61,452 nt of DNA. Source: Oscillospiraceae bacterium (GTDB lineage Bacteria > Bacillota > Clostridia > Oscillospirales > Oscillospiraceae). Positions within the stretch are counted from its first letter, which is position 1; each line of letters starts with the position of its first letter. Shown one piece after another: positions 13,003-61,452 of the stretch. The position numbers were made by a program, and so were the translations under genes. The notes beneath the pieces were generated by a model. It searched no databases, was not told the DNA's origin, and saw nothing but the letters and a program-made list of their open reading frames with translations. The stretch is taken from NCBI GenBank assembly GCA_009785345.1, contig WQWL01000006.1:1-61452 (forward strand), in the 5' to 3' direction.

Positions 13003-13032
13003 TGTCATTCTGCGACTTCGCGCAGAATGACA
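13003..13032. repeat. Palindromic repeat (TGTCATTCTGCG family), dnaK-grpE gap
   Basis: TGTCATTCTGCG (13003-13014) pairs perfectly with CGCAGAATGACA (13021-13032) around ACTTCG. The sequence, including the following TTAGTTTTC, matches one half of the larger element at 50700-50773, so it belongs to a dispersed family. Confidence 0.7.
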
Positions 13033-13052
13033 TTAGTTTTCGTGATGTGTTT

Positions 13053-17012: not shown

Positions 17013-17096
17013 GTCCCTCTCCAAGGACGATATGCCACGCCGTATGGCGACAAAAAGACAAGTCATAATGTTCAAGTTATTGTTTGACAGTTCCTA
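17013..17096 (-). repeat. Half of a long inverted-repeat element, uxaA-kdgA gap
   Basis: Read on the minus strand, this stretch aligns with 61329-61405. Shared blocks are GGAACTGTC, AATAACTTG, ACATT, CTTGTCTTTTTG, CGCCAT, CGGC and a CCTTG..AGG core. Only one arm is present; it ends at a small GTCC..GGAC hairpin where the loop should be. It is probably a truncated MITE-like copy. Confidence 0.6.
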
Positions 17097-17104
17097 AGTA
17101 TTAG

Positions 17105-18586
17105 CTAAAGCGTCACGCCGTTTTTGAAGATTGCAAATTCGCGTACGCCTTGCTCTTCGTTCTTTGTATGAACCTGCCCACTTGCCAGAGACATTATATA
17201 ACTGTAAAATTCCTCGCCTAATTCATCTAAAGATATGCCATCAACAAGCCTTCCTGCATCAAAGTCTATCCAGTTTTTCTTGCGCCTGGCAAGGGGTGTG
17301 TTGCTTGAAACTTTGATAGTTGGTACTGGTGAGCCGAACGGCGTTCCACGTCCTGTGGTGAAAATCACCATATGTGCGCCACTCGCCGCCAGAGCAGAAG
17401 AGGCCACGAGGTCGTTTCCGGGCGAGTTCAGAAGGTTCAGCCCTTTCCGGGTTAGCGGTGCGCCATACTCCAGAACATCCATCACAGGGGCGGTACCGCA
17501 TTTTTGGATGCAGCCTAGCGATTTGTCCTCCAGTGTAGTAATCCCGCCGTCTTTATTTCCAGGCGATGGATTTTCGTAAATGGGTTGTTCATTCAAAAGA
17601 AAATAGTTTTTGAAGTTGTTAATTAGCGCTACCGTTTTTCTGAATGTTTCCTCGTCTTTGCAACGACTCATGAGTATTGTTTCAGCTCCGAACATTTCAG
17701 GCACTTCCGTTAAAATTGCCGAGCCACCCTCAGCAATAATTTTATCCGAAATGACACCGACCAACGGGTTGGCTGTAACGCCTGAAAGTCCGTCGCTTCC
17801 ACCACATTTTAGACCTAGAACAAGCTCGCTGGCAGGTGTGGGCATTCTTTGATTGCGACTTGCAAGTGTTATCAGCTCTTTGACAATTTCAAGGGAATCC
17901 CCGATGTCATCTTCAATCTCCTGCACACTCAAAAAACGTATACGTTCCTTGTCCACCGGACCCAGCACCGCTTGCAAATCTTCAATGCGGTTGTTCTCAC
18001 AGCCAAGACCCAGGACTAACACACCTCCGGCGTTGGGATGTCTAATCAGCCCACTTAATGCCTTCTGCGTGTTTTTAAGGTCATCGCCAAGTTGCGAACA
18101 TCCGTACGGATGAGGAAAGGCATGCACGCCTTGTACACTGCCGACAATAAGTTGTTGTGCGGCTTCGGCAACTGCCTGGGCAATCGAATTTATACAGCCC
18201 ACAGTTGGAACTATCCAAATTTCGTTGCGGATTCCCACTTTGCCGTCATCTCGCCTAAAACCCATAAAATTTGTGGGTTTGCTGGGGGAGAGGGCAGAGA
18301 ACTTGGGGTTATAGCTGTAATTCTTTTCCTCGCTAAGGCGGGTTTTCAGATTGTGAGTATGCACATGTTCGCCCGGCTCTATATTGGCGGTAGCAACGCC
18401 GATAGGGTGACCACACTTGATGACATTGTGGCCATTACTAATTTGAGTGATTGCGACCTTGTGCCCCAAAGCGATGTCAACATTAACGGTTAAGGTGACC
18501 TCGTCGACACGCACCTGTTCACCCTTTTTTATGTCCTTGAGTGCAACAACCACACTATCAGCCGGGTTAATCTGTAAAAGACTCAT
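17105..18586 (-). CDS. uxaA: Altronate dehydratase
   Basis: This 493-aa iron-dependent lyase dehydrates D-altronate to 2-keto-3-deoxygluconate. The N-terminal SAF domain (~1-95, with GHKVAI and GEHVHTHNL) is joined to the UxaA/GarD catalytic region (FMGFRRDDGKVGIRNEIW, HPYGCSQLGDD, GLGCENNRIE, GLKCGGSDGLSG). The length is normal for the fused form. It lies between uxaB and kdgA. Its ribosome site GAAAGGAATGG is exactly complementary to an upstream hairpin (see 18584-18659), suggesting translational control. Confidence 0.97.
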   Translation of the reverse strand: MSLLQINPADSVVVALKDIKKGEQVRVDEVTLTVNVDIALGHKVAITQISNGHNVIKCGHPIGVATANIEPGEHVHTHNLKTRLSEEKNYSYNPKFSALSPSKPTNFMGFRRDDGKVGIRNEIWIVPTVGCINSIAQAVAEAAQQLIVGSVQGVHAFPHPYGCSQLGDDLKNTQKALSGLIRHPNAGGVLVLGLGCENNRIEDLQAVLGPVDKERIRFLSVQEIEDDIGDSLEIVKELITLASRNQRMPTPASELVLGLKCGGSDGLSGVTANPLVGVISDKIIAEGGSAILTEVPEMFGAETILMSRCKDEETFRKTVALINNFKNYFLLNEQPIYENPSPGNKDGGITTLEDKSLGCIQKCGTAPVMDVLEYGAPLTRKGLNLLNSPGNDLVASSALAASGAHMVIFTTGRGTPFGSPVPTIKVSSNTPLARRKKNWIDFDAGRLVDGISLDELGEEFYSYIMSLASGQVHTKNEEQGVREFAIFKNGVTL

Positions 18587-18659
18587 ATAAAATCCATTCC
18601 TTTCGGATTACTTAGGCACAAATCGTCCATGAAAGGAATGGATTTTTTGTGCATCAATT
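18584..18659 (-). promoter_or_regulatory. Candidate RNA switch, copy A (uxaA leader)
   Basis: On the minus-strand transcript, GCACAAA..TCCAT folds with ATGGA..TTTGTGC around loop TCCTTTC (18616-18652). Alternatively AAAATCCATTCCTTTC (18646-18631) pairs perfectly over 16 bp with GAAAGGAATGGATTTT (18604-18589), which contains the uxaA Shine-Dalgarno sequence. The two folds exclude each other. Sequence and layout match copies at 21894-21979 and 53938-54016. Confidence 0.6.
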
Positions 18660-18715
18660 TCGGTTCTCGCCGAATGCGGGAAAAATTGGTATATTCTCAC
18701 GTTTAGCGTGGTTTT

Positions 18716-20125
18716 TCACGCTATCACCTCTTCAATCGCATGCCTCATACCATGTTCGTGAATACTTCGTAGAGAAGCTGTAACTGCTTCGCTTATCCCT
18801 GGGATTTTAGTTAGATCTTGCCCCCAAAAGTCTGTCCTGGATAAAAATGCATCGACATTTGTGCTACCCGCGAAGAACTCAAGTACAGAGACATCATCCT
18901 TGATCTCGTAAGGTTTTCCGGCTCTTTGACCGTCAGTGTAAAACGTTATAAGTGAAGCCAGAGAGAAGCAGAGGAGGGGTGGTACATTACCGGTTTTTTC
19001 AAATGTCTCAAGGATGGTAGGCAACACTCGCACCTTGAACTTGGAGATGCTGTTGAGTGTGATAGAAATCAGCTTGTGCCTAATAAACGGGTTCTCAAAG
19101 CGCTCTATCACCTGTGCGACAAAGGCATTGACCTCGTCATGAGGTAGTGGAACCATCGGTGCGAGTTCGCCGTAGGCAATCTTCTCAAGGAATTTGCGCA
19201 AGGTCTCATCAACCATCATTTCACCCACAGTGTCCAGACCGGAAAGAAATGCCGCCGCCGCGCATGAAGTATGAATGCCGTTGAGAATGCGAACTTTGCG
19301 CTCTCTATACGGCTGCAGATTGTCTGTAAAAATTACCGGTAGTCCGGCCTTGTCCATCGGGAATTCCTTTGCTACAGTAGGATTGGTGCTCTCTATCACC
19401 CAAAGAGCAAAAGGCTCGCCACAGACAAGCAAAGAATCGGTGTAGCCTAGCTCTTTCTCAAGTTCATCAGCTTCATCATGAGGGTAGCCGGTAACAATTC
19501 TATCTACAAGTGTATTGCAAAAAATATTAGCATCAATTATCCAGAGCTTGAACTCGTCAGGCAACCCCCAAAGCTTACATAGCTTTAAGCAGCAGTCCCT
19601 GAGGTGTTCTCCATTTTTACTTATAAGCTCGGTCGGCAAAAAAATCAGGCCTTTATCTTTGGCTCCTCCAAAGACATTATAGCGCTCATAGAGAAACTTG
19701 GTGACTTTGCCGGGGAAGGAGACGGGCGGTGTGCTCTCAAACCGGTCGTTCTCGTCGTAAACAATGCCGGCCTCGGTAGTGTTTGAAATCACAAAGCGCA
19801 GATCTGCGCTAGACGCAAATGAGATAAATTCATCATAGTCACCGTAAGAGTCGCTGATGCCATCAACACAGGTAATCACCTTCTTGTGGATGACTTGCTC
19901 CCCGCCAACTATCCCTCGAAGTAAAACGGTGTAGACGCAGCCCTGCGCTTTGAATGTCTTTGTGCTACCGAAATTTACAGGCTTTACAATTTGCACATTG
20001 CTGTCAAAAATTCCCATCTCGTTTGCAATTTCAATCTTATGCTCCACAAAGGCGCGCAGGAAATTGCCTTCACCAAACTGAAGTATCTTAATTGGGCGAT
20101 TGACTTTTTTTGCACTCACTATCAT
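18716..20125 (-). CDS. uxaB: Tagaturonate reductase (altronate oxidoreductase)
   Basis: This 469-aa NAD-dependent polyol-dehydrogenase-family enzyme reduces D-tagaturonate to D-altronate. Seen directly: ILQFGEGNFLRAFVEHKI (dinucleotide-binding start typical of UxaB), VISNTTEAGI, LPTELISKNG, and the catalytic-region motif RKVRILNGIHTSCAAAAFLSG. It is the second gene of the uronate operon, 34 bases after kdgK, with AAGGAG before the ATG. The gap to uxaA holds a small hairpin (ATTTCGG..CCGAAT, 18658-18677) and RNA-switch copy A. Confidence 0.96.
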   Translation of the reverse strand: MIVSAKKVNRPIKILQFGEGNFLRAFVEHKIEIANEMGIFDSNVQIVKPVNFGSTKTFKAQGCVYTVLLRGIVGGEQVIHKKVITCVDGISDSYGDYDEFISFASSADLRFVISNTTEAGIVYDENDRFESTPPVSFPGKVTKFLYERYNVFGGAKDKGLIFLPTELISKNGEHLRDCCLKLCKLWGLPDEFKLWIIDANIFCNTLVDRIVTGYPHDEADELEKELGYTDSLLVCGEPFALWVIESTNPTVAKEFPMDKAGLPVIFTDNLQPYRERKVRILNGIHTSCAAAAFLSGLDTVGEMMVDETLRKFLEKIAYGELAPMVPLPHDEVNAFVAQVIERFENPFIRHKLISITLNSISKFKVRVLPTILETFEKTGNVPPLLCFSLASLITFYTDGQRAGKPYEIKDDVSVLEFFAGSTNVDAFLSRTDFWGQDLTKIPGISEAVTASLRSIHEHGMRHAIEEVIA

Positions 20126-21430: not shown

Positions 21431-21479
21431 AAGTAATATGTTGAAAATGTTGAAAAATCGCCAAAAGAATAAATTATTG

Positions 21480-21508
21480 TTGACATGAATTTGGACTTAA
21501 TGTATATT
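21480..21508 (+). promoter_or_regulatory. SigmaA promoter of the PL11 gene cluster
   Basis: There is a perfect -35 TTGACA (21480-21485), a 17-base spacer and -10 TATATT (21503-21508). The sequence from the -35 through the downstream operator is nearly identical to the GntR gene promoter at 59299-59365. It implies a ~740-base untranslated leader before the lyase gene at 22287. Confidence 0.8.
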
Positions 21509-21516
21509 TGATGTAA

Positions 21517-21546
21517 GAACGCTTGCATGCATGGATTCAAGCATTC
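21517..21546. promoter_or_regulatory. GntR-type operator downstream of the PL11 promoter
   Basis: GAACGCTTG and CAAGCATTC flank a 12-base centre, with an inner palindrome of the form TTG-x-AT-x-CATG-x-AT-x-CAA. It begins 8 bases past the -10, a roadblock position. The matching palindrome in front of the GntR gene points to that protein as the ligand. Confidence 0.7.
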
Positions 21547-21893
21547 AGGCAAGTCAGCTTGGTGTACCTTATCATGAGTAATTTATGTATATAACAGCAT
21601 GCTATGTTGACACATTTTCAGCAATTTCACAGACTTACGAATAGTCTGTTTATATATCCATATAACGCCTAAAAGTTGATAAGATTAACAGAAGTGGAAA
21701 ACCCTCTGAACCTTGAAAATTCAGTAGTTTGTGCCAGATAAAGTGTAGCAAATCTCGCTCAAAAATGTTACGGTAGATATATTACAAACCTTGTAATACC
21801 AACGGATTGAGAGGAGTTGATGTATGGGTATCATATAGTTTGAAAGACTTTAAACTAACGAGAGAATGTGCCAATTGCGATATATAGAATCGC

Positions 21894-21979
21894 AATTGAT
21901 GCACGAAATGACCATCCCCTTTCATGGTCGTTTTGTGCCAAAGGATTAAGGATTAATGAAAGGCATGGTCATTAAAATG
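21894..21979 (+). promoter_or_regulatory. Candidate RNA switch, copy B (PL11 leader)
   Basis: GCACGAAATGACCAT (21901-21915) pairs over 15 bp, including two G-U, with ATGGTCGTTTTGTGC (21924-21938). The alternative fold pairs AATGACCAT..CCTTTC with GAAAGG..ATGGTCATT (21959-21974), a Shine-Dalgarno-like segment followed by ATG 21977. A separate stem, CAATTGCGAT/ATCGCAATTG (21872-21898), precedes it. The ATG opens only a 19-codon frame (MNMTFEQEF..., stop 22034-22036) that runs into the structured RNA at 22005. It is either a leader peptide or a decapitated gene start. Confidence 0.6.
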
Positions 21980-22004
21980 AATATGACATTTGAACAAGAG
22001 TTTA

Positions 22005-22245
22005 TCTTCCCACCACTTAACGCCTCTGGCGTTTGAAGTTGGGGTCTTTTGAGTTAGGACTCACGCCTCTAAGCTTAGTGAAGGCGGAACACTTTCAGTG
22101 GGAGTACAATCCCCCTCAGAAGGAAAGTTGACTGAAATAGCCAAACCTCTACCGAGCACTTTAATTTTGGCGCTACACCAGCCGATTACTCTGGGCAATG
22201 TGAAATATCCGGCTTTCGCCGGAGCAAACATGCACAGCGCTTTCA
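22005..22245 (+). ncRNA. Structured RNA resembling HEARO / IscB omega RNA, without its nuclease gene
   Basis: The stretch has dense stems: ACTT-ACGCC/GGCGT-AAGT (22013-22040), CGCCT..AGGCG (22064-22086), GGGAG..CCCCC (22100-22115), CTTTCAGT with ACTGAAA closing around it, and a terminal CCGGC-TTTC-GCCGG (22209-22222). Single-stranded conserved-looking blocks are GTTGACTGAAATAG, AACCTCTACCGAGC and TTGGCGCTACA. From memory these blocks resemble the Rfam HEARO family, the guide RNA of IscB transposon nucleases, which often occurs without an ORF. No IscB or TnpA frame lies nearby. It sits in the 5' leader of the lyase gene, so it may alter that transcript. The family call needs a covariance search. 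Confidence 0.5.
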
Positions 22246-22286
22246 GAGTTTTTAAGGAAATTCTATATTATAATTGGAGGTAGACA

Positions 22287-25200
22287 ATGAAAATCAAGAA
22301 ATCAACCAGATTTATTTGCACGATTCTTACTTTTGTCATGCTGTTTTCGGTAGTACCGATGATGGGTATGGCAGCCGCAGATGAGCAACTCCCGGTCGAA
22401 GATGAAATGCTTCTAGTCGAGGACGAAGCGCTGCTTTTAGAAGACGAAGCATTGCCTGTCGAAGAGGAATCCCTAGAGCTTGAGTATTACGCGGAACTCC
22501 TTGAAGAGGAAGTTCAGGACAGAGGAGTACCGACTCTGGTATGGTATGAAAACTTCGAGCATAACAGCTCAGCACAGATGAGCTGGAGCTACAGGGGTGG
22601 CACAAGAGTTCCGGATGCAAACAATCGCAACAACACGATTGAGCAATCCATCGTACCCCAAGGCTTTGGTGTTGGCGGAGTGACACCGGGTCCGAACAGC
22701 GACCCAGATAGCGAATTTATGGGAAGATTTGCTTCAGTTGCCGGTAACAATCAACGGAGACAAGGAAGAGCAGTCTTTGATCAGCCGATTTTGACAAATG
22801 GAGAGGCAAATCTTACTTTTGACTGGTTCCCAGGTGTTCCCGGAGGACAACGTTACGGACAACTGGCAGTACAGTCCATTGATCATTTTAATTCTCTAAA
22901 TTATTTATCATTTGTTAATATTCCAGCGGGACTACCAGTGGCACACGCTCCTGCAGGATATGCACCGGGTCTATATTTCGTTGTAGGAACGACACGAAAT
23001 GTATTTATTCCTGATCTGGGAATTTCTGTAATGCCCGAATCACCAAACTTCATCACAGCAAATGTCAACTCATGGCTAACAATCAGCATCGATTTCGATT
23101 TCACAGCCAGAACGATGAACCTCGTGATTACAGAAGCAGTTACAGGCGCACCTGTGCTTGCACAATTACTGCAAATGGCAGACGAACCTTATGTTGCAAA
23201 TCAAGTTACAGGTCTTCAGTTTTTTGGCAACTCTTTCGCGGCAAACAGCTGGAACACATACCTTGATAATGTAAGTGTCCGCGTTTATGATGGTCTGCCC
23301 ACATCAATCAACAGAATCGCACATCCGTTCGGCATGCCACAAAATGTTGTGTACTCACCTGTTACAACAGACTCTGTAACAGTTAACTGGGACAACATGG
23401 AAGCTGATGGTTTCTATATTTACCGCCGTCATGCAACACAAGCCAGGACAGCTCTGCAAAGAATCGCAACTGTAACAGATGGCTTCAGTTTTGAAGATAC
23501 AGGCTTATCAGGCCCCTACTATTACTATCGCGTCGCCGCATTCCGTAATACAGAAAACGGCGAAGTCGAAGTATCCGAAATGACACGTGAAGCCTTCATC
23601 GTACTGGCTGCAGACCAAGAAGATGAATACGACGACTTCACATTAATCAGCGCCACAGATACAACATTTGCAGGCTTTGGTAACCGTTTACGCCTTGGCG
23701 ATCTTGACGGTGACGGACGCATGGACATCCTTCTGACAAACGTCTTGCCACAAGCCGGACGCAACTGGGCAGGCGGATTCCCGAATGCATTCCCGAATGC
23801 AGCCGGAGCTCCGGGTGTCGGCACAGGTGGTGATGGTGGAAGTCCTCGCGTTATCTACTCGCTAACAGCACTTGATATCGAAGGAAACATCCTTTGGCAA
23901 CGCTGTGCACTAACTAATTTCCGCGGTTTTGACGGACACTCAAGAGAAATCAGTACTGGTGCGGACGAGCCGGTTCAAATCGGTCGAGTTACTGCCGATG
24001 TATATAACAACGTAGTACTCGTAGCAAACCAAGGCGTACCGGCGACAGAAGCCTGGTCTGCAGCTAACCCATGGATTAACTCTGTTCCTCCGCTACTCCT
24101 CGCCAATCCGGAATTCATTATGCCAACAAATTATGTTGACAGATTCTACCAAGTGGAAGGCGATGTTTTCTACATACTTGACGGAAGAACAGGCGATCCC
24201 GCAGTTGATGTTAACGGTCGCCCAATGGAAATGACATGGACAGAACTCATTGCAATAAATCCGGATCTTCCGATAACAAATGTCCATCACCTGCATGACC
24301 AAATAACTCTTGCAAATCTCGACGGCAGAGGAGTTAATGCATATGGTGAAACAGTATTCTTAGCTGACGATCCTACAGCAGAACCTCTTCTCCAACACGT
24401 TATTGTGAGTCATCGCTACCAGCGTACAACTGCATTTGAAATGATTAACCATGATGGTGAATTCGTCATGCGTTTCATGTGGCAGTATAACGCCCACCCA
24501 CCGGGTCTTGGTGGCGGCGACACATCACCGCACTACCCACTTGCAGCACCTATGTTCCGCGATCAGGGCGATACCAGAGATTGGATTTACAACAACTGGG
24601 AACTCTTACATCCGGAAACAGGCGTTCCAATGTGGCGCGTTCCCAATGGACATAGAACATTCCAACCTGCGGGTACATGGGATCCTGGTATTCTCGTAGC
24701 CCGTGCCGCACATATGGACTCCATCTGGGTAGCAGATATGTTTGGCACAGGCGAGTATGTCATAGTCAAAGGCGTTGACTCTGATAATATGGCCGTTGTT
24801 GCGGTGACCAGAGAAGGTGAAGTGCTTTTTGCAAACTTCTGCCCGACTGAAGCCCAATCAGCAAATCCTGCATGGTTCAGAACAGATGCCGAAGGCATGA
24901 TGTCAGTAGGTCTTGACCGCAGACATCGCGGAGCATACCCACAGGGTCATGATGGATTGTTCATGCTTGATTCAACCGGTGCTACAGTTTTCACAGAGCG
25001 TTCAAATTTCCAAGGTTGGATGACTACAACATGGGCGATGAACAACTGGAACGGAACTTTCTCGCCGCTGGTATTTGCGTTCAACCGGAATCTCCATGCG
25101 ATAGAAGCTGTTGTGGGAGGACATTTCCCGCCATCTATACTCGAACAGAATCTTCCGCCGGCATTCTATGATGGCTACTTTAACCCACTCTTTACATTAC

Positions 25201-26441
25201 CGGAACTTGTCGGATGGGAAGGTCTCCGCTGGATGCAAGGTAATCTGATGGGCGACTCCCGAGATGAAATAGTATCATTCAGTGATCGTGCACATCTCTT
25301 TGTCTTTGCTAATGGCGTGCAGGATGCATTTGACGGAATCACAGGAGTTCCACGCCGCTCGACTCCGCTTCAATCAAGCTGGACACGTTACAATGTGGGC
25401 TACTTCTCAACAAACTTTGCAGATCGCGAAGCATCAACTCCGCATGCAAGAGTACTTAGCCCGACGAGCGTAGAAATAACATTAATCCCGGTCATTTTTG
25501 CTACCGGCTATACTCTATACCAAAATGGTGTAGCGATTCGCACCTTTAATCCGGATGTTGACGATCTTGTGCATGTTGTAACAGGTCTCTCTACTGATAC
25601 AATCTATGAATTCTCTGTGACAGTATCCGAGACCACAATGGCAAATGAAGTTAGAACAACACGTCCATCTGTGCCTTTCGTGTTCAACAGGCAACTGGGT
25701 GAAGTAGGATTCACAGCTGAACATTACTTTGGTGCTAACTCTTCTTACATCAGAATCACATTCGATCGCCCTGTTACCGGACTCATTGCTCAAAACATCG
25801 TAGTTCAGAGCTTTGTAGGCGACAGATATGCAGGCTTCACAACAGGTGAGCTGACAGGCAGTGGTGCAGTGTACTATCTTGAAATTACTGAAATTACAAG
25901 ACTCGGCGTATTACGTGTGATTATTGCTGACTTCAACTCATTCTTTGTAACGACAAATCCCGTAGAACTCTATCTTGTTCATCGCGTCGTTGAGTTCAAC
26001 GGCACAAGCCCTGGACAACTAAGTCGCATACTAGAGCAAGGATTTGTAAATGTTACTCTTTCAACAAGAGGTAATCTGGGTATTTTCACACAACACAGTC
26101 CGTTTGTGATTCCAGAAGGAAGCATACTCACTGTTACAACTACATTGAATGTTTCTGGAAATGCTGAACTCGTCGTTGAGGGAACACTTGTTGTAGCTGA
26201 AGGTGGCAGAGTCAACAACCAAGGTGGCTCGGGCGGTACTATAACCCTTGAAGGTGCACTTGTAAACAACGGCTGGGTAGAAAATGTAACGAACTCAACC
26301 TTTGTAAACAATGGCACAATCGAAAACAATGGCAGGTTTGAAGTACGCGCATCTGCTACATTAAATAACTACGGTGATGTAGAAGGAACCCCGCTAAACA
26401 TAAACCGCAACGCAATCGTAACCCCACCACAAGGGGAGTGA
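22287..26441 (+). CDS. Secreted multidomain beta-propeller protein, divergent PL11-like rhamnogalacturonan lyase
   Basis: This is a 1384-aa exported protein with GGAGGT 7 bases before the ATG. Signal peptide ~1-32; acidic tandem repeat (units like LPVEDE, ALLLEDEALPVEEE) ~33-75; LamG/concanavalin-like domain ~80-335; FN3 ~345-430; a large propeller region ~450-1045 with calcium-loop motifs such as DLDGDGRMD; one to two FN3-like domains ~1050-1230; and the shared C-terminal module ~1235-1384. The propeller resembles the FG-GAP-like blades of PL11 lyases but lacks the close matches seen in the four downstream paralogues, so lyase activity is inferred. No LPXTG, dockerin or SLH motif is visible. 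It is first in the cluster, behind the GntR-type promoter and the long structured leader. Confidence 0.75.
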   Translation: MKIKKSTRFICTILTFVMLFSVVPMMGMAAADEQLPVEDEMLLVEDEALLLEDEALPVEEESLELEYYAELLEEEVQDRGVPTLVWYENFEHNSSAQMSWSYRGGTRVPDANNRNNTIEQSIVPQGFGVGGVTPGPNSDPDSEFMGRFASVAGNNQRRQGRAVFDQPILTNGEANLTFDWFPGVPGGQRYGQLAVQSIDHFNSLNYLSFVNIPAGLPVAHAPAGYAPGLYFVVGTTRNVFIPDLGISVMPESPNFITANVNSWLTISIDFDFTARTMNLVITEAVTGAPVLAQLLQMADEPYVANQVTGLQFFGNSFAANSWNTYLDNVSVRVYDGLPTSINRIAHPFGMPQNVVYSPVTTDSVTVNWDNMEADGFYIYRRHATQARTALQRIATVTDGFSFEDTGLSGPYYYYRVAAFRNTENGEVEVSEMTREAFIVLAADQEDEYDDFTLISATDTTFAGFGNRLRLGDLDGDGRMDILLTNVLPQAGRNWAGGFPNAFPNAAGAPGVGTGGDGGSPRVIYSLTALDIEGNILWQRCALTNFRGFDGHSREISTGADEPVQIGRVTADVYNNVVLVANQGVPATEAWSAANPWINSVPPLLLANPEFIMPTNYVDRFYQVEGDVFYILDGRTGDPAVDVNGRPMEMTWTELIAINPDLPITNVHHLHDQITLANLDGRGVNAYGETVFLADDPTAEPLLQHVIVSHRYQRTTAFEMINHDGEFVMRFMWQYNAHPPGLGGGDTSPHYPLAAPMFRDQGDTRDWIYNNWELLHPETGVPMWRVPNGHRTFQPAGTWDPGILVARAAHMDSIWVADMFGTGEYVIVKGVDSDNMAVVAVTREGEVLFANFCPTEAQSANPAWFRTDAEGMMSVGLDRRHRGAYPQGHDGLFMLDSTGATVFTERSNFQGWMTTTWAMNNWNGTFSPLVFAFNRNLHAIEAVVGGHFPPSILEQNLPPAFYDGYFNPLFTLPELVGWEGLRWMQGNLMGDSRDEIVSFSDRAHLFVFANGVQDAFDGITGVPRRSTPLQSSWTRYNVGYFSTNFADREASTPHARVLSPTSVEITLIPVIFATGYTLYQNGVAIRTFNPDVDDLVHVVTGLSTDTIYEFSVTVSETTMANEVRTTRPSVPFVFNRQLGEVGFTAEHYFGANSSYIRITFDRPVTGLIAQNIVVQSFVGDRYAGFTTGELTGSGAVYYLEITEITRLGVLRVIIADFNSFFVTTNPVELYLVHRVVEFNGTSPGQLSRILEQGFVNVTLSTRGNLGIFTQHSPFVIPEGSILTVTTTLNVSGNAELVVEGTLVVAEGGRVNNQGGSGGTITLEGALVNNGWVENVTNSTFVNNGTIENNGRFEVRASATLNNYGDVEGTPLNINRNAIVTPPQGE
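25984..26438 (+). repeat. Shared C-terminal module, copy 1
   Basis: It begins VVEFNGTSP, then STRGNLGIF, HSPFVIP, TVTTTLN, NQGGSGGTI and Asn-rich turns (NNGTIENNGRFEV). It is the most diverged of the five copies. Confidence 0.9.
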
Positions 26442-50699: not shown

Positions 50700-50773
50700 C
50701 GTCATTCTGCGCGAAGTCGCAGAATCCAAGAAATCTGCGCATACTCGATTCTGCGACTTCGCGCAGAATGACG
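50700..50773. repeat. 74-bp element with perfect 27-bp inverted repeats
   Basis: The arms 50700-50726 (CGTCATTCTGCGCGAAG...) and 50747-50773 are exact reverse complements separated by 20 bases. Each arm is also partly self-complementary. The right arm and its flank TTAGTTTTC recur at 13003-13041. It is a MITE/REP-type element between kduI and kduD. Confidence 0.85.
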
Positions 50774-52548: not shown

Positions 52549-53940
52549 CTAGTTCCTCCACTTCTCTGGCAGAAAAGGGAGTGTGTTTGATATCATTGTG
52601 TTAAAAAGCTCTTTTGCTTCTTCAAGACTAATAGTTACAAGTGGGTCGTTTGCAAAAACAGAAAATGCCAGTTCTTTGTCACAGCTTATGGCAGCACTTA
52701 CGGTCATTTCTTGACTATAAACATGATGTGCCATGACCCCCAGGATATTTTCCGGGACTTTGCCGGATACTACCGGTCGGATTTCGCCTGATCTAAATAT
52801 CGCATTAGTCTCTACAATTGTACCGAGTGGCAAGTTGCGTACTTGACCGATGTTTGGCAAATTCACATTACTGATTATTTCTCTTATTCCTAAAAGGGCT
52901 TGCATCAATATGTGCCCTTCTTCACCTGTTGCATTCAGCACTACCGATTCTTCGCCAGTTATTAAACGCTCTCTCCGCATAAGTTTTTCTTCCAAATTAG
53001 CAACACGCCAGTCCACTGTCGTAAGTTTGAAGCGCCATCTATTTATAGATTCAGGGCTTTGAAGATACCAACTTCCGGGACAAAATTCAGCGAGATGCCT
53101 GTCACCAGCAGCAGCAATGTAGCCGTATCTGCAAAACAAGTCAAATTTTACACGTTCGGCAGATGCAAAGAGATCGCTCCTCCAATCACTACCCTTACGA
53201 AGAATATATCCTTCATCATAATGAGTTTTAACAAACTCGCTGTAAATTGGCAATAAATCTATGTCATGATAGCGTGCAAAATCAATCCATGTAAAATGAT
53301 TAATACCCAAGACATTGATGTTTATATCTTCGCGAGTTGCCTCAATTCCCTTGCAATCATAGAGCATTTGTGCCAAAAGCTTTTGTGTTTCAAAGACTTC
53401 ATGACAGCAACCAAAAGCCTTTATCTCAGGGAATACAGTATATAATGCCTTAAGCGAAACTGACATAGGATTTGTGTAGTTTATCACCCAGGCATTAGGA
53501 GAATGCTCTTTTATGGCACTCGCAATTTCGACAAACATTGGAACTGTGCGCAAGGCTCGTATGAAACCTCCAGGTCCAACCGTATCGCCTACGGGCTGAT
53601 AAATTCCATATTTTTCAGGACTGTGAACATCACTGCGCATTTGCTCAAACGTCCCCGGGAGGATAGATATAATTACAAAATCAGCATCTTGCAGAGTATC
53701 TGCCAGGTTATATGCAACTGTGTACGTCCATTCTCCTTTTGAATCCTTTAAACTACTGTATTTATTACCTATTATGCAGTTCTTTTCAGTGGACTCACTA
53801 CAAATGTCATAGAGACAGACTGTTCCATTCATGGAATCATCCATGGCAAGGTCTGACATCAGTCCCCACGCCCAGCCGCGGCTGCCTCCGCCGATATATG
53901 CAATTTTCACATCATAAGCTTTATTATTAAGTATTCTCAT
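52549..53940 (-). CDS. Family GH4 NAD-dependent glycosidase, probably alpha-galacturonidase
   Basis: This is a 463-aa protein starting MRILNNKAYDVK at 53940; an in-frame ATG at 53952 overlaps the AAAGGA ribosome site. GH4 features are the N-terminal Rossmann motif KIAYIGGGSRGW, ILPGTFEQM, GDTVGPGGFIRALRTVPMF, NYTNPMS (~155), GCCHEVFET (metal-binding Cys/His) and NVLGINHFTWI. GH4 enzymes use NAD and a divalent metal in an oxidation-elimination mechanism. Closest in motif pattern and in context are the alpha-galacturonidases/alpha-glucuronidases, so it likely frees galacturonate from imported oligomers. Its start region contains RNA-switch copy C. It is cytoplasmic, next to GH105. Confidence 0.88.
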   Translation of the reverse strand: MRILNNKAYDVKIAYIGGGSRGWAWGLMSDLAMDDSMNGTVCLYDICSESTEKNCIIGNKYSSLKDSKGEWTYTVAYNLADTLQDADFVIISILPGTFEQMRSDVHSPEKYGIYQPVGDTVGPGGFIRALRTVPMFVEIASAIKEHSPNAWVINYTNPMSVSLKALYTVFPEIKAFGCCHEVFETQKLLAQMLYDCKGIEATREDININVLGINHFTWIDFARYHDIDLLPIYSEFVKTHYDEGYILRKGSDWRSDLFASAERVKFDLFCRYGYIAAAGDRHLAEFCPGSWYLQSPESINRWRFKLTTVDWRVANLEEKLMRRERLITGEESVVLNATGEEGHILMQALLGIREIISNVNLPNIGQVRNLPLGTIVETNAIFRSGEIRPVVSGKVPENILGVMAHHVYSQEMTVSAAISCDKELAFSVFANDPLVTISLEEAKELFNTMISNTLPFLPEKWRN

Positions 53941-54016
53941 TCTTATGACCATTCCTTTCGCAGTGTTCAGTCACAAAATAATCATGGATAAGGGATGGTC
54001 GTTTTGTGCATTAATT
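53938..54016 (-). promoter_or_regulatory. Candidate RNA switch, copy C (GH4 leader)
   Basis: On the minus-strand transcript, CACAAAACGACCAT folds with ATGATTATTTTGTG around GGATAAGGG-complement loop CCCTTATCC (53972-54008). Alternatively GACCATCCCTT can pair with AAGGAATGGTC (53957-53946), which contains the GH4 Shine-Dalgarno segment ahead of ATG 53940. Layout and sequence match copies at 18584 and 21894. It begins just after the GH105 stop. Confidence 0.55.
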
Positions 54017-54019
54017 TTC

Positions 54020-55069
54020 TCAGCGTGCTTTCTTTAGTTCCTTAGAGTCACTCTCAAGCACTGCAGCAAGTTGAGCAAGAGCAAGTCCCTGCCCCCATCC
54101 TTGAGTCCAAACTTTTGGTACACTCATATAGCCGACTCTGTCGCGCATGACTGCTGTTCCACCAGATACATTCATGACGCTGCCATCTTCGGCAACATTC
54201 TCCATAACGCCTTTTAAAGCAGCCGTTGCATGAGATGTGTGCAATGGATTATTATTGAGTATCATTGCCGCACCTATTCCCGCTGAAGCAGAAACTTCAT
54301 CATAGCTCTCGTTATCGTCCAAAAGAGTTCCCCATAATCCAGAAGGTCTTTGAAGCGCTTTTAAGGCTGAGAGTTGATCACGTAACGAACAGTCTATATG
54401 CATATATGGCGGATAGAGATATGGCTCCGGCAGTACCATTCGTACACGACTCATTGTGTAAGCTGCCCAAGCATTGGCTCGTCCCCAACGAAATCCGGAC
54501 ATGTGCCCTTTTTCAATATTATTGTAGGCATGATACCAAAGTCCCGTAGATTTGCATTGCAAGAACTCCACATGATAGTAATATTGATTAAGTGCATCCT
54601 CAATTAACTTTCTGTCATCCAGAAAAACACCAAGTCTGAGCATAAAGTAAGCTGCCATAAACAGGGTGTCTGCCCAAGCCTGCTCTGGGAAGTCATTTGA
54701 CGAAGAAACTGTGTGCTGCAGAACATTGTCTCCGAATCGTTCGGCTTTATTTTGCAAATAGTCCAGTTTGCTCTTGATCAGATCCATGTATTTTTCATCG
54801 CCTGTACTTTTGTAAAGTGTCATCAAGCAATGTCCCATAGAACAGGTATTTACAGTCCAGAAAGATGGCAAACCTACATCAATTCGCAAATCAACTGCAT
54901 CTTTTAGCCTTTGGATGTATTCATCGTTTTTTGAAGCTTCATACGCACGAGATATGCCGTAAAAAGCAACACCGCAAGGCCAGTCCCACGTTAAATCCAT
55001 AGATAGGGTTTTATCGACTACTTTGTCTATTTTGCTAAGTACAAGATTTTTGTCAAATTCAAGTTGCAT
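54020..55069 (-). CDS. Unsaturated rhamnogalacturonyl hydrolase, family GH105
   Basis: This is a 349-aa (alpha/alpha)6-barrel enzyme of the YteR/YesR type. It hydrates and splits the delta-4,5-unsaturated galacturonyl residue from rhamnose in the products of RG lyases. Seen: the early WDWPCGVAFYGI region, catalytic Asp in QAWADTLFMAAYFM (~135), GLWYHAYN, FRWGRANAWAAYTMSRV, SASAGIGAAMI and GYMSVPKVWTQGWGQGLAL. There is no signal peptide, so it is cytoplasmic and follows import by the ABC permeases just upstream (24-base gap). It supplies substrate to KduI. Confidence 0.94.
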   Translation of the reverse strand: MQLEFDKNLVLSKIDKVVDKTLSMDLTWDWPCGVAFYGISRAYEASKNDEYIQRLKDAVDLRIDVGLPSFWTVNTCSMGHCLMTLYKSTGDEKYMDLIKSKLDYLQNKAERFGDNVLQHTVSSSNDFPEQAWADTLFMAAYFMLRLGVFLDDRKLIEDALNQYYYHVEFLQCKSTGLWYHAYNNIEKGHMSGFRWGRANAWAAYTMSRVRMVLPEPYLYPPYMHIDCSLRDQLSALKALQRPSGLWGTLLDDNESYDEVSASAGIGAAMILNNNPLHTSHATAALKGVMENVAEDGSVMNVSGGTAVMRDRVGYMSVPKVWTQGWGQGLALAQLAAVLESDSKELKKAR

Positions 55070-59274: not shown

Positions 59275-59298
59275 AAGTTAAAGCTCTCTTTCATCTCT

Positions 59299-59328
59299 GA
59301 ATACTTGAATCCATGTATGCAAGTATTC
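59299..59328. promoter_or_regulatory. GntR-type operator in front of the regulator gene
   Basis: GAATACTTG and CAAGTATTC are perfect 9-bp arms around a 12-base centre. It is near-identical, on the opposite strand, to 21517-21546 and lies just downstream of the -10. Confidence 0.75.
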
Positions 59329-59336
59329 TTGCTTTA

Positions 59337-59365
59337 AATATACACCAAGTCTAAATTCATGTCAA
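59337..59365 (-). promoter_or_regulatory. SigmaA promoter of the GntR gene
   Basis: On the minus strand there is TTGACA (59360-59365), 17 bases and TATATT (59337-59342). The -35, spacer and operator align with the PL11 promoter at 21480-21546. Confidence 0.8.
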
Positions 59366-59395
59366 CAACTTTTGAAGCGTTGTTCGCCAATAATT

Positions 59396-61328: not shown

Positions 61329-61452
61329 AAGGAACTGTCTGGAAATAACTTGCACATTTTCCCTTGTCTTTTTGCCGCCATGCGGCACATAAAAACCTTG
61401 AAAGGCATTAGCATTACTGCGGTTTTTCTGCACCACATGACAACAAAAATCC
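61329..61452. repeat. Long inverted-repeat element, cut by the window end
   Basis: The left part aligns with the minus strand of 17013-17096. Inside, TTTTTGCCGCCATGCGG..AAAACC pairs with GGTTTT..CCACATGACAACAAAAA around CCTTGAAAGG. The outer right arm would lie past base 61452. Confidence 0.6.

Follow-up and report, generated by a model that had tools for sequence, protein, structure and literature searches.

A mobile, structured repeat placed before start codons in a genus of Oscillospiraceae

Introduction

Tolerance of small repeats usually reflects insertion at points where little harm results. The element described here occupies a highly sensitive point of a bacterial gene, the gap between the ribosome signal and the start codon, and it does so precisely and in sense in genes that include usually essential ones. 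Among the closest described systems, MITEs and the BOX, RUP, SPRITE, and REP repeats are, like this element, small and non-coding, with many dispersed copies and structured transcripts (PMC10969869). Riboswitch- or terminator-like MITE RNAs are named as possibilities in that review, the main text of which contains neither "start codon" nor "Shine-Dalgarno" (PMC10969869). Rickettsia palindromic elements, also covered in the review, resemble the present element in being small palindromic repeats tied closely to coding genes, and many of them insert in frame inside open reading frames (ORFs) and encode a peptide (PMC10969869). Translational coupling by RNA unfolding relies on a ribosome that translates an upstream frame and thereby melts a hairpin masking the following ribosome site (PMC12548453, available portion). 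Finally, the TAACTGA repeats of Beggiatoaceae lie in many copies just before the starts of unrelated genes and are suspected of a translational role (PMC4679880, available portion).

The stretch of DNA analyzed, hereafter the window, comprises 61,452 nt of contig WQWL01000006.1 from an Oscillospiraceae genome assembly (GCA_009785345.1). A first-pass annotation of its sequence had proposed, at three places, a hairpin whose 5' arm and loop can also pair with the next ribosome site, and had interpreted it as a candidate metabolite-sensing translational switch of a pectin/uronate regulon.

Layout of the element in the window

Reading of the sequence confirmed that layout for all three copies, each oriented like the ORF that follows it. 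The 5' arm plus loop indeed covers the next ribosome site, in an RNA structure that lies in the sense direction and shows covariation, both pairings exceeding column shuffles. The unit is nevertheless larger than first described, at about 135 nt, with two further hairpins upstream. Its order is H1 (e.g., TAGTTTGAATAAATTCAAACTA), ATGTGCC, H2, ATGCAC, S1 (e.g., ATGACCATCCCTTTTC), S2 (e.g., ATGGTCGTTTTGTGC), a spacer, and S3 (e.g., GAAAGGAATGGTCAT), with ATG after S3. A covariance model (R1) built from 19 copies, including window copies 1 and 2, and applied with a match threshold of E <= 0.001, finds all three window copies, copy 3 at 58.9 bits. The features are as follows.

18588..18723, minus strand: copy 1, full element, between uxaB and uxaA (R1 match, 105 bits)
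18704..18723, minus strand: copy 1 hairpin H1 (AGCGTG/CACGCT; GTG codon at 18717-18719), from sequence and covariation
18655..18688, minus strand: copy 1 hairpin H2, from sequence and the minimum-energy fold; absent from the centroid of that fold
18631..18646, minus strand: copy 1 S1 (arm plus loop), a 16-nt exact complement of S3 (inverted repeat)
18616..18630, minus strand: copy 1 S2, from sequence; pairs with S1 at 5/8 inner positions
18589..18604, minus strand: copy 1 S3, the element's ribosome site GAAAGGAATGGATTTT, from sequence; uxaA start codon at 18586
21836..21974, plus strand: copy 2, full element (R1 match, 128.8 bits); the start codon at 21977 opens just 19 codons
21836..21857, plus strand: copy 2 hairpin H1 (TAGTTTGAAAGACTTTAAACTA), from the fold
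21868..21904, plus strand: copy 2 hairpin H2 (GTGC...GCAC), from the fold
21908..21923, plus strand: copy 2 S1, from sequence
21924..21938, plus strand: copy 2 S2, from sequence
21958..21972, plus strand: copy 2 S3 (GAAAGGCATGGTCAT), from sequence
53938..54016, minus strand: copy 3, 5'-truncated (S1, S2, and S3 only), between GH88 and GH4 genes, from sequence; R1 match at 53943-54059
53945..53959, minus strand: copy 3 S3 (GAAAGGAATGGTCAT), from sequence

The assignment of H1 in copy 1 also draws on copies in two relatives (G009 and G012) that have similar TAGCGTGA starts. Copy 3, which retains the 3' half alone, has its likely start codon at 53940. When seven sequences were folded, z-scores ranged from -4.9 to -6.8 for the six full copies, a degree of structure beyond chance, and the short copy 3 gave only -1.37. 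The window contains no Rfam family at gathering score (0 matches), in agreement with the earlier statement that no known riboswitch class is involved, and a permissive Rfam search of four loci gave no match over the element.

The placement of all three copies in a pectin/uronate regulon holds for copies 1 and 3 and not for copy 2. On one side of copy 1 is a gene of the mannitol dehydrogenase family, interpreted as uxaB, and on the other an altronate dehydratase gene; UxaC and KDPG aldolase are encoded close by, as is KduI near the GH88-GH4 pair that surrounds copy 3. The next long ORF after copy 2 (22287-26441) is preceded by a Shine-Dalgarno sequence (SD) of its own and matches no Pfam family at E <= 0.001; it begins approximately 300 nt beyond the copy 2 start codon (21977-22286).

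Other repeats share the window with the element. They comprise a REP-like palindromic family (GTCATTCTGCGCGAAGTCGCAGAATC and its complement) at 50700-50773 and 13004-13044, two dispersed inverted repeat families, one of 72 nt (21477-21548 and 59297-59368) and one of 57 nt (17039-17095 and 61330-61386), and, at 22287-45586, C-terminal DNA repeats (families D1 to D3) that are common to five large ORFs, the first being the ORF with no Pfam family noted above, and show 61 to 88% identity to reference copies.

Alternative pairings of S1

We compared the two pairings open to S1 in two alignments, namely, A3, produced with MAFFT from 19 copies and independent of S1:S3, and A5, which comprises 101 copies fitted to the H1+H2+S1:S3 structure and leans towards that pairing. 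In A3, 95.8% of the structure with S1:S3 is paired, and 9 of its pairs show changes on both sides versus 2.6 in shuffles; for the structure with S1:S2, 95.4% is paired and 7 pairs show such changes versus 2.7. The contrast with shuffles overstates covariation because the copies are related. Within the two helices themselves, 96.1% and 94.4% of the cells are paired. With its bias towards S1:S3, and with the same overstatement, A5 gives 96.2% and 21 two-sided changes versus 10.1 for the former structure and 93.5% and 18 versus 10.2 for the latter.

Scoring of individual pairs in 98 copies (3 with gaps were left out) separates the two more clearly. At least 7 of the 8 S1:S3 pairs are present in 93/98 copies, and at least 7 of the 8 S1:S2 pairs are present in 66/98. 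Among the 19 copies in which S1 has changed at two or more positions, S1:S3 is kept by this measure in 16 and S1:S2 in 2. Thus, S1:S3 is the maintained pairing and S1:S2 a weaker alternative, as is also seen in copy 1, where 8/8 inner pairs form with S3 and 5/8 with S2. The proposal that both pairings are conserved therefore stands insofar as both covary and falls short insofar as diverged copies retain S1:S3 alone. In 83 copies, the mean predicted probability that the AAAGG of the ribosome site is unpaired rises from 0.25 to 0.59 when the 5' side through S1 is held open.

Copy number and distribution across genomes

The window's own assembly (G000; 3.5 Mb in 237 contigs, 86% complete) yielded 45 matches with copy 1 as the query, a few of them being the opposite strand of the same place, and 67 matches with R1. 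Hence, the element is not confined to pectin/uronate genes, and the three window copies are a small sample of a repeat spread through this genome. This offers a caution, in that a few copies within one operon family can mimic a regulon though they are sampled from a genome-wide repeat. R1 matches were recovered in 13 of the 40 relatives searched, G000 included. Eleven of the 18 other genomes of the genus have between 2 and 54 matches, with no match in the remaining 7, and one genome of the same family has 2 (best E = 1.3e-4). The totals include 54 in G010, 16 in G005, and 8 each in G004 and G009. The exact element pattern is also present on two contigs labelled as Oscillospiraceae bacterium Emb289P1 bins (a named genome collection), a label that suggests a termite gut as the probable source, and tandem copies or remnants are visible by eye on contigs C10, C114, and C29. 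The phage records searched gave no match.

Placement at start codons and the target genes

We tabulated the placement, on the element's own strand, of 117 mostly stronger matches from ten genomes, comprising 55/67 from G000, 43/54 from G010, 8/16 from G005, 4/8 from G004, 2/8 from G009, and one each from G002, G006, G007, G012, and G016. Five of these could not be judged: contig ends cut four of them, and in the fifth the contig stops after 39 open codons. Among the 112 assessable copies, 104 directly precede an ORF that has the element's orientation and at least 60 codons, with a start codon lying between 2 nt before and 8 nt after the model end; in 82 copies, an ATG lies exactly 2 nt past that end. 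Window copy 2 belongs to the 8 copies with no long ORF next to them.

Twenty of the 104 downstream proteins, chosen because they looked recognizable, were scanned against Pfam, and 18 showed a family at E <= 1e-10, the other two showing none. These scanned targets include RpoC, an Era-like GTPase, topoisomerase I, a carboxyl transferase, FolD, PlsX, riboflavin kinase, a tRNA pseudouridine synthase, and a protein of queuosine synthesis; the targets of the element are functionally unrelated. Furthermore, the targets of 47 copies in G000 and 39 in G010 have one pair in common, the Era-like gene, a difference that may be overstated because orthologs of some of the genes may be absent. One further target (ParA-like by eye) is common to G004 and G016.

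Junctions with and without the element

Comparison of orthologous junctions at rpoC, uxaA, and, in part, era revealed sites both with and without the element. The rpoC gene was found in 18/19 genomes, and in 16 of these 18 the junction, inspected by eye, consists of an SD, 7 to 10 nt, and the ATG, with nothing else. G010 has a full element between SD and ATG, and G012 has an S3-like site alone. Between uxaB and uxaA, G010 reads AAAAGGAGTGCGCAGTGAGT with the element absent, and in G000 the element stands between GAAGAGGTGAT and ATGAGT; neither the G010 nor the G015 junction orthologous to copy 1 has an element or an R1 match. At the Era-like gene, G000 has the element and G010 a different subfamily of it, with a weak R1 match in G007 (22 bits) and, by eye, S3-like sites in G004 and G005. 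A different, palindrome-rich segment lies upstream of this gene in G009.

In the 101-copy set, the closest relative of a copy lies within its own genome for 45/48 copies of G000, 27/34 of G010, 5/8 of G005, and 3/4 of G004. Identity of 95% is reached by three pairs within G000, one within G010, and none of the 1,632 G000-G010 pairs. By its distribution, the element is mobile.

Several possible origins were considered and set aside. Reverse transcriptase (PF00078) was not found in G000, G010, or G005 and is present in G003, G008, G013, and G018, which have no copies, and thus, as far as incomplete drafts allow, it does not track copy number as a group II intron or retroelement origin would suggest. 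With the same proviso, derivation from IS200/IS605 was rejected on the distribution of the Y1 transposase (PF01797), which has three matches in G000, is present in the zero-copy genomes G001, G003, and G011, and was not detected in G010 (54 copies) or G005 (16 copies). A larger, ORF-bearing version was discounted, as no 5' half lies within 1.9 kb upstream of eight truncated copies, and the junctions at rpoC and era fit a TA target duplication uncleanly. Two further possibilities were considered by eye alone, namely, integron attC cassettes and an IscB/HEARO-type insertion at ATGA, on the latter of which a literature search found nothing.

The host Shine-Dalgarno sequence and a proposed translational-coupling model

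In 77 of 95 copies (the 101 rows minus 6 with no NTGA at that place), the 16-nt segment immediately before the H1 start codon contains a strong host SD, with a pairing energy to the 16S 3' end of -5 kcal/mol or lower; three segments lying farther upstream reach this value in 12, 19, and 19 of the 95 copies (p = 2e-20 for the comparison with the middle segment). The H1 triplet is TTG in 73 copies, GTG in 13, ATG in 8, and CTG in 1, with compensatory changes in H1. In 54/95 copies, an ORF of at least 80 codons ends between -45 and +12, and 22 of these 54 stop at TAG or TGA positions inside TAGTNTGA; the stop codon of the preceding gene thus often comes from the element.

Taking together the placement, the host SD, the start codon, and the hairpin, we infer, with a probability of about 0.6, that this is a non-coding mobile repeat of approximately 135 nt that sits in sense between the host SD and the start codon in this Oscillospiraceae genus and leaves the target gene tied to its old SD by translational coupling. 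The three hairpins, the placement, the differing targets between genomes, the covariation, and the remnants with a 3' ribosome site are seen directly in the sequences, and the coupling is the proposed part. Ribosomes recruited by the displaced SD would initiate at the NTG codon within H1 and, either directly or after restarting at the ATG of ATGCAC, would run over S1 and open S1:S3, thereby freeing the element's own site (GAAAGG...), from which the target gene would then be translated. S1:S2, as a weaker local alternative, would help to hold S3 open. With this tie to the old SD retained, insertions could be tolerated even by essential genes.

A reading path through S1 is offered by 70 of the 85 copies that have ATGCAC. 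From the NTG codon, 48 read through S1 and 22 stop overlapping the ATG of ATGCAC, where a restart is possible; 13 stop early and 2 stop inside S1, and 10 further copies have no ATGCAC. The NTG frame is open to the ATGCAC point in 72/85 copies versus 38 expected in shuffles; the control frame +2 is open about as often (67/85), giving no evidence of selection for a translated leader. A conserved leader peptide was rejected, as leader lengths fall in all three frame classes (31/24/30) and the translations differ. The host SD may be a mere fossil of the insertion.

If the coupling holds, translation starts would be rewired one gene at a time by a mobile module that offers a natural and reusable translational coupler and that, on decay, would leave its ribosome site behind. 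Partial copies bear on the last point. Among eight places in G000 that match copy 1 only in its 3' part, seven precede an ORF of more than 130 codons, and six that match only its 5' part prove by eye to have S3 or to run into a contig end. The signature GAAAGGAATG-n-ATG, full copies counted, occurs 77 times in G000 and 94 times in G010, versus 2 to 10 times in seven element-free genomes. This decay pattern, in which the 3' ribosome site is kept, fits a working ribosome site.

Cousins outside the genus

Among 294 other genomes sampled from the order, R1 has one match each in G040 (E = 9e-6) and G079 (E = 4e-6). They share a core, GTGCCATTTCCTCGCCCC...GGCAACCGGAAATGATGCAC, and have different H1 and third hairpins. 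The core pattern was recovered in 5/299 other genomes of the family and a shorter version in 5/393 other genomes of the order, with all carriers (seven different genomes) belonging to this family; the core also occurs on replicons of Vescimonas fastidiosa and Pusillibacter faecalis. One 20-nt core of these cousins has no exact match in viral contigs. The putative homology of the cousins rests on the core and the order of three hairpins. In the seven cousin sites read, no S3-like ribosome site was seen. One in G040 (contig C49) stands about 20 nt behind a T-box leader (Rfam) and, by eye, before a ValRS-like ORF, and one in G079 (contig C8) about 20 nt behind a fluoride riboswitch (Rfam); in both, H1 appears by eye to begin in the T-run of the terminator. 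A third resembles the fluoride case, and most others follow terminator-like hairpins, again by eye.

A broader proposal, which we offer as tentative, is a new kind of transposable element, aimed at translation start sites, that would insert between SD and start codon, take over the host SD for a mini-frame, and keep the host gene expressed through ribosome-driven unfolding of a hidden ribosome site, even in the genes for RpoC, Era, and topoisomerase I; the low-copy cousins would then indicate that targeting shifted from transcription terminators to translation starts.

Alternative explanations

Several other readings deserve consideration. That of a riboswitch sensing a metabolite of the pectin/uronate regulon draws on the presence of two of the three window copies in uronate/pectin operons and on alternative pairings that free or hide a ribosome site. 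It is nevertheless very improbable, for the scanned targets are unrelated housekeeping genes, the 47 and 39 targets in G000 and G010 overlap in one, the nearest relatives of the copies are mostly in the same genome, and the likeliest aptamer, namely, the central hairpin, differs in sequence from one subfamily to another within the genus. Unrelated and hardly shared targets, empty junctions, and closest relatives within the same genome together point to a mobile repeat at start codons rather than a uronate riboswitch. The first-pass annotation had named, as evidence against its switch, copies mainly outside leaders and in random orientation, as in a mobile repeat; mobile behavior is what we find, with the examined copies lying not at random but at gene starts and in sense.

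If one protein or small RNA acted on all copies, the element would be a global translational switch under trans control that a mobile repeat has spread, with the network of repeats as its regulon. The conserved H2 core and the anti-ribosome-site hairpin at many genes, the alternative pairing, and the fact that the core is the part common to relatives outside the genus agree with this, but the scanned genes have no common function, few targets are common between genomes, and 7 of the 18 other genomes of the genus have no match, so that we regard it as unlikely. Somewhat more credible, though still doubtful, is a purely selfish repeat that carries a ribosome site; its hairpins would serve mobility (through recognition of single-stranded DNA or RNA), and S1:S3 would merely tolerate translation. 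Such a repeat would explain why the out-of-genus relatives keep three hairpins behind terminators with no visible ribosome site, why the leader frame is unconserved, and why remnants of the ribosome site alone persist. It sits less easily with S3 being, within the genus, ribosome site and S1 partner at once and with the nearly constant distance there between S3 and the start codon. We prefer the reading of a mobile repeat that couples its target to the old SD.

Comparison with known systems

Within the open-access literature subset searched (top-ranked titles and abstract openings), we found no description of such an element. As in MITEs, its copies are short, non-coding, and dispersed, with intragenomic spread. 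Terminal inverted repeats are not apparent, since the ends (TAGTTTGA... and ...GGTCATTA) are not complementary by eye in A3 and the palindromes are internal hairpins, and no target-site duplication is evident at rpoC, uxaA, or, in part, era, the sole junctions comparable. In contrast to MITEs and palindromic repeats, nearly every examined copy stands in sense immediately next to a start codon and supplies a ribosome site. Unlike the Rickettsia palindromic elements, it is located before the ORF and conserves no peptide. The coupling cases described in the available portion of PMC12548453 are ordinary gene pairs, whereas here the coupler would be a mobile module between the SD and the gene. The Beggiatoaceae TAACTGA sequences are heptamer direct repeats (PMC4679880, available portion), whereas the present unit has about 135 nt and three hairpins. 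In kind the element is nearest to the small palindromic repeats, and its new features are that it lies precisely, and in sense, before start codons and that it contains an anti-ribosome-site hairpin.
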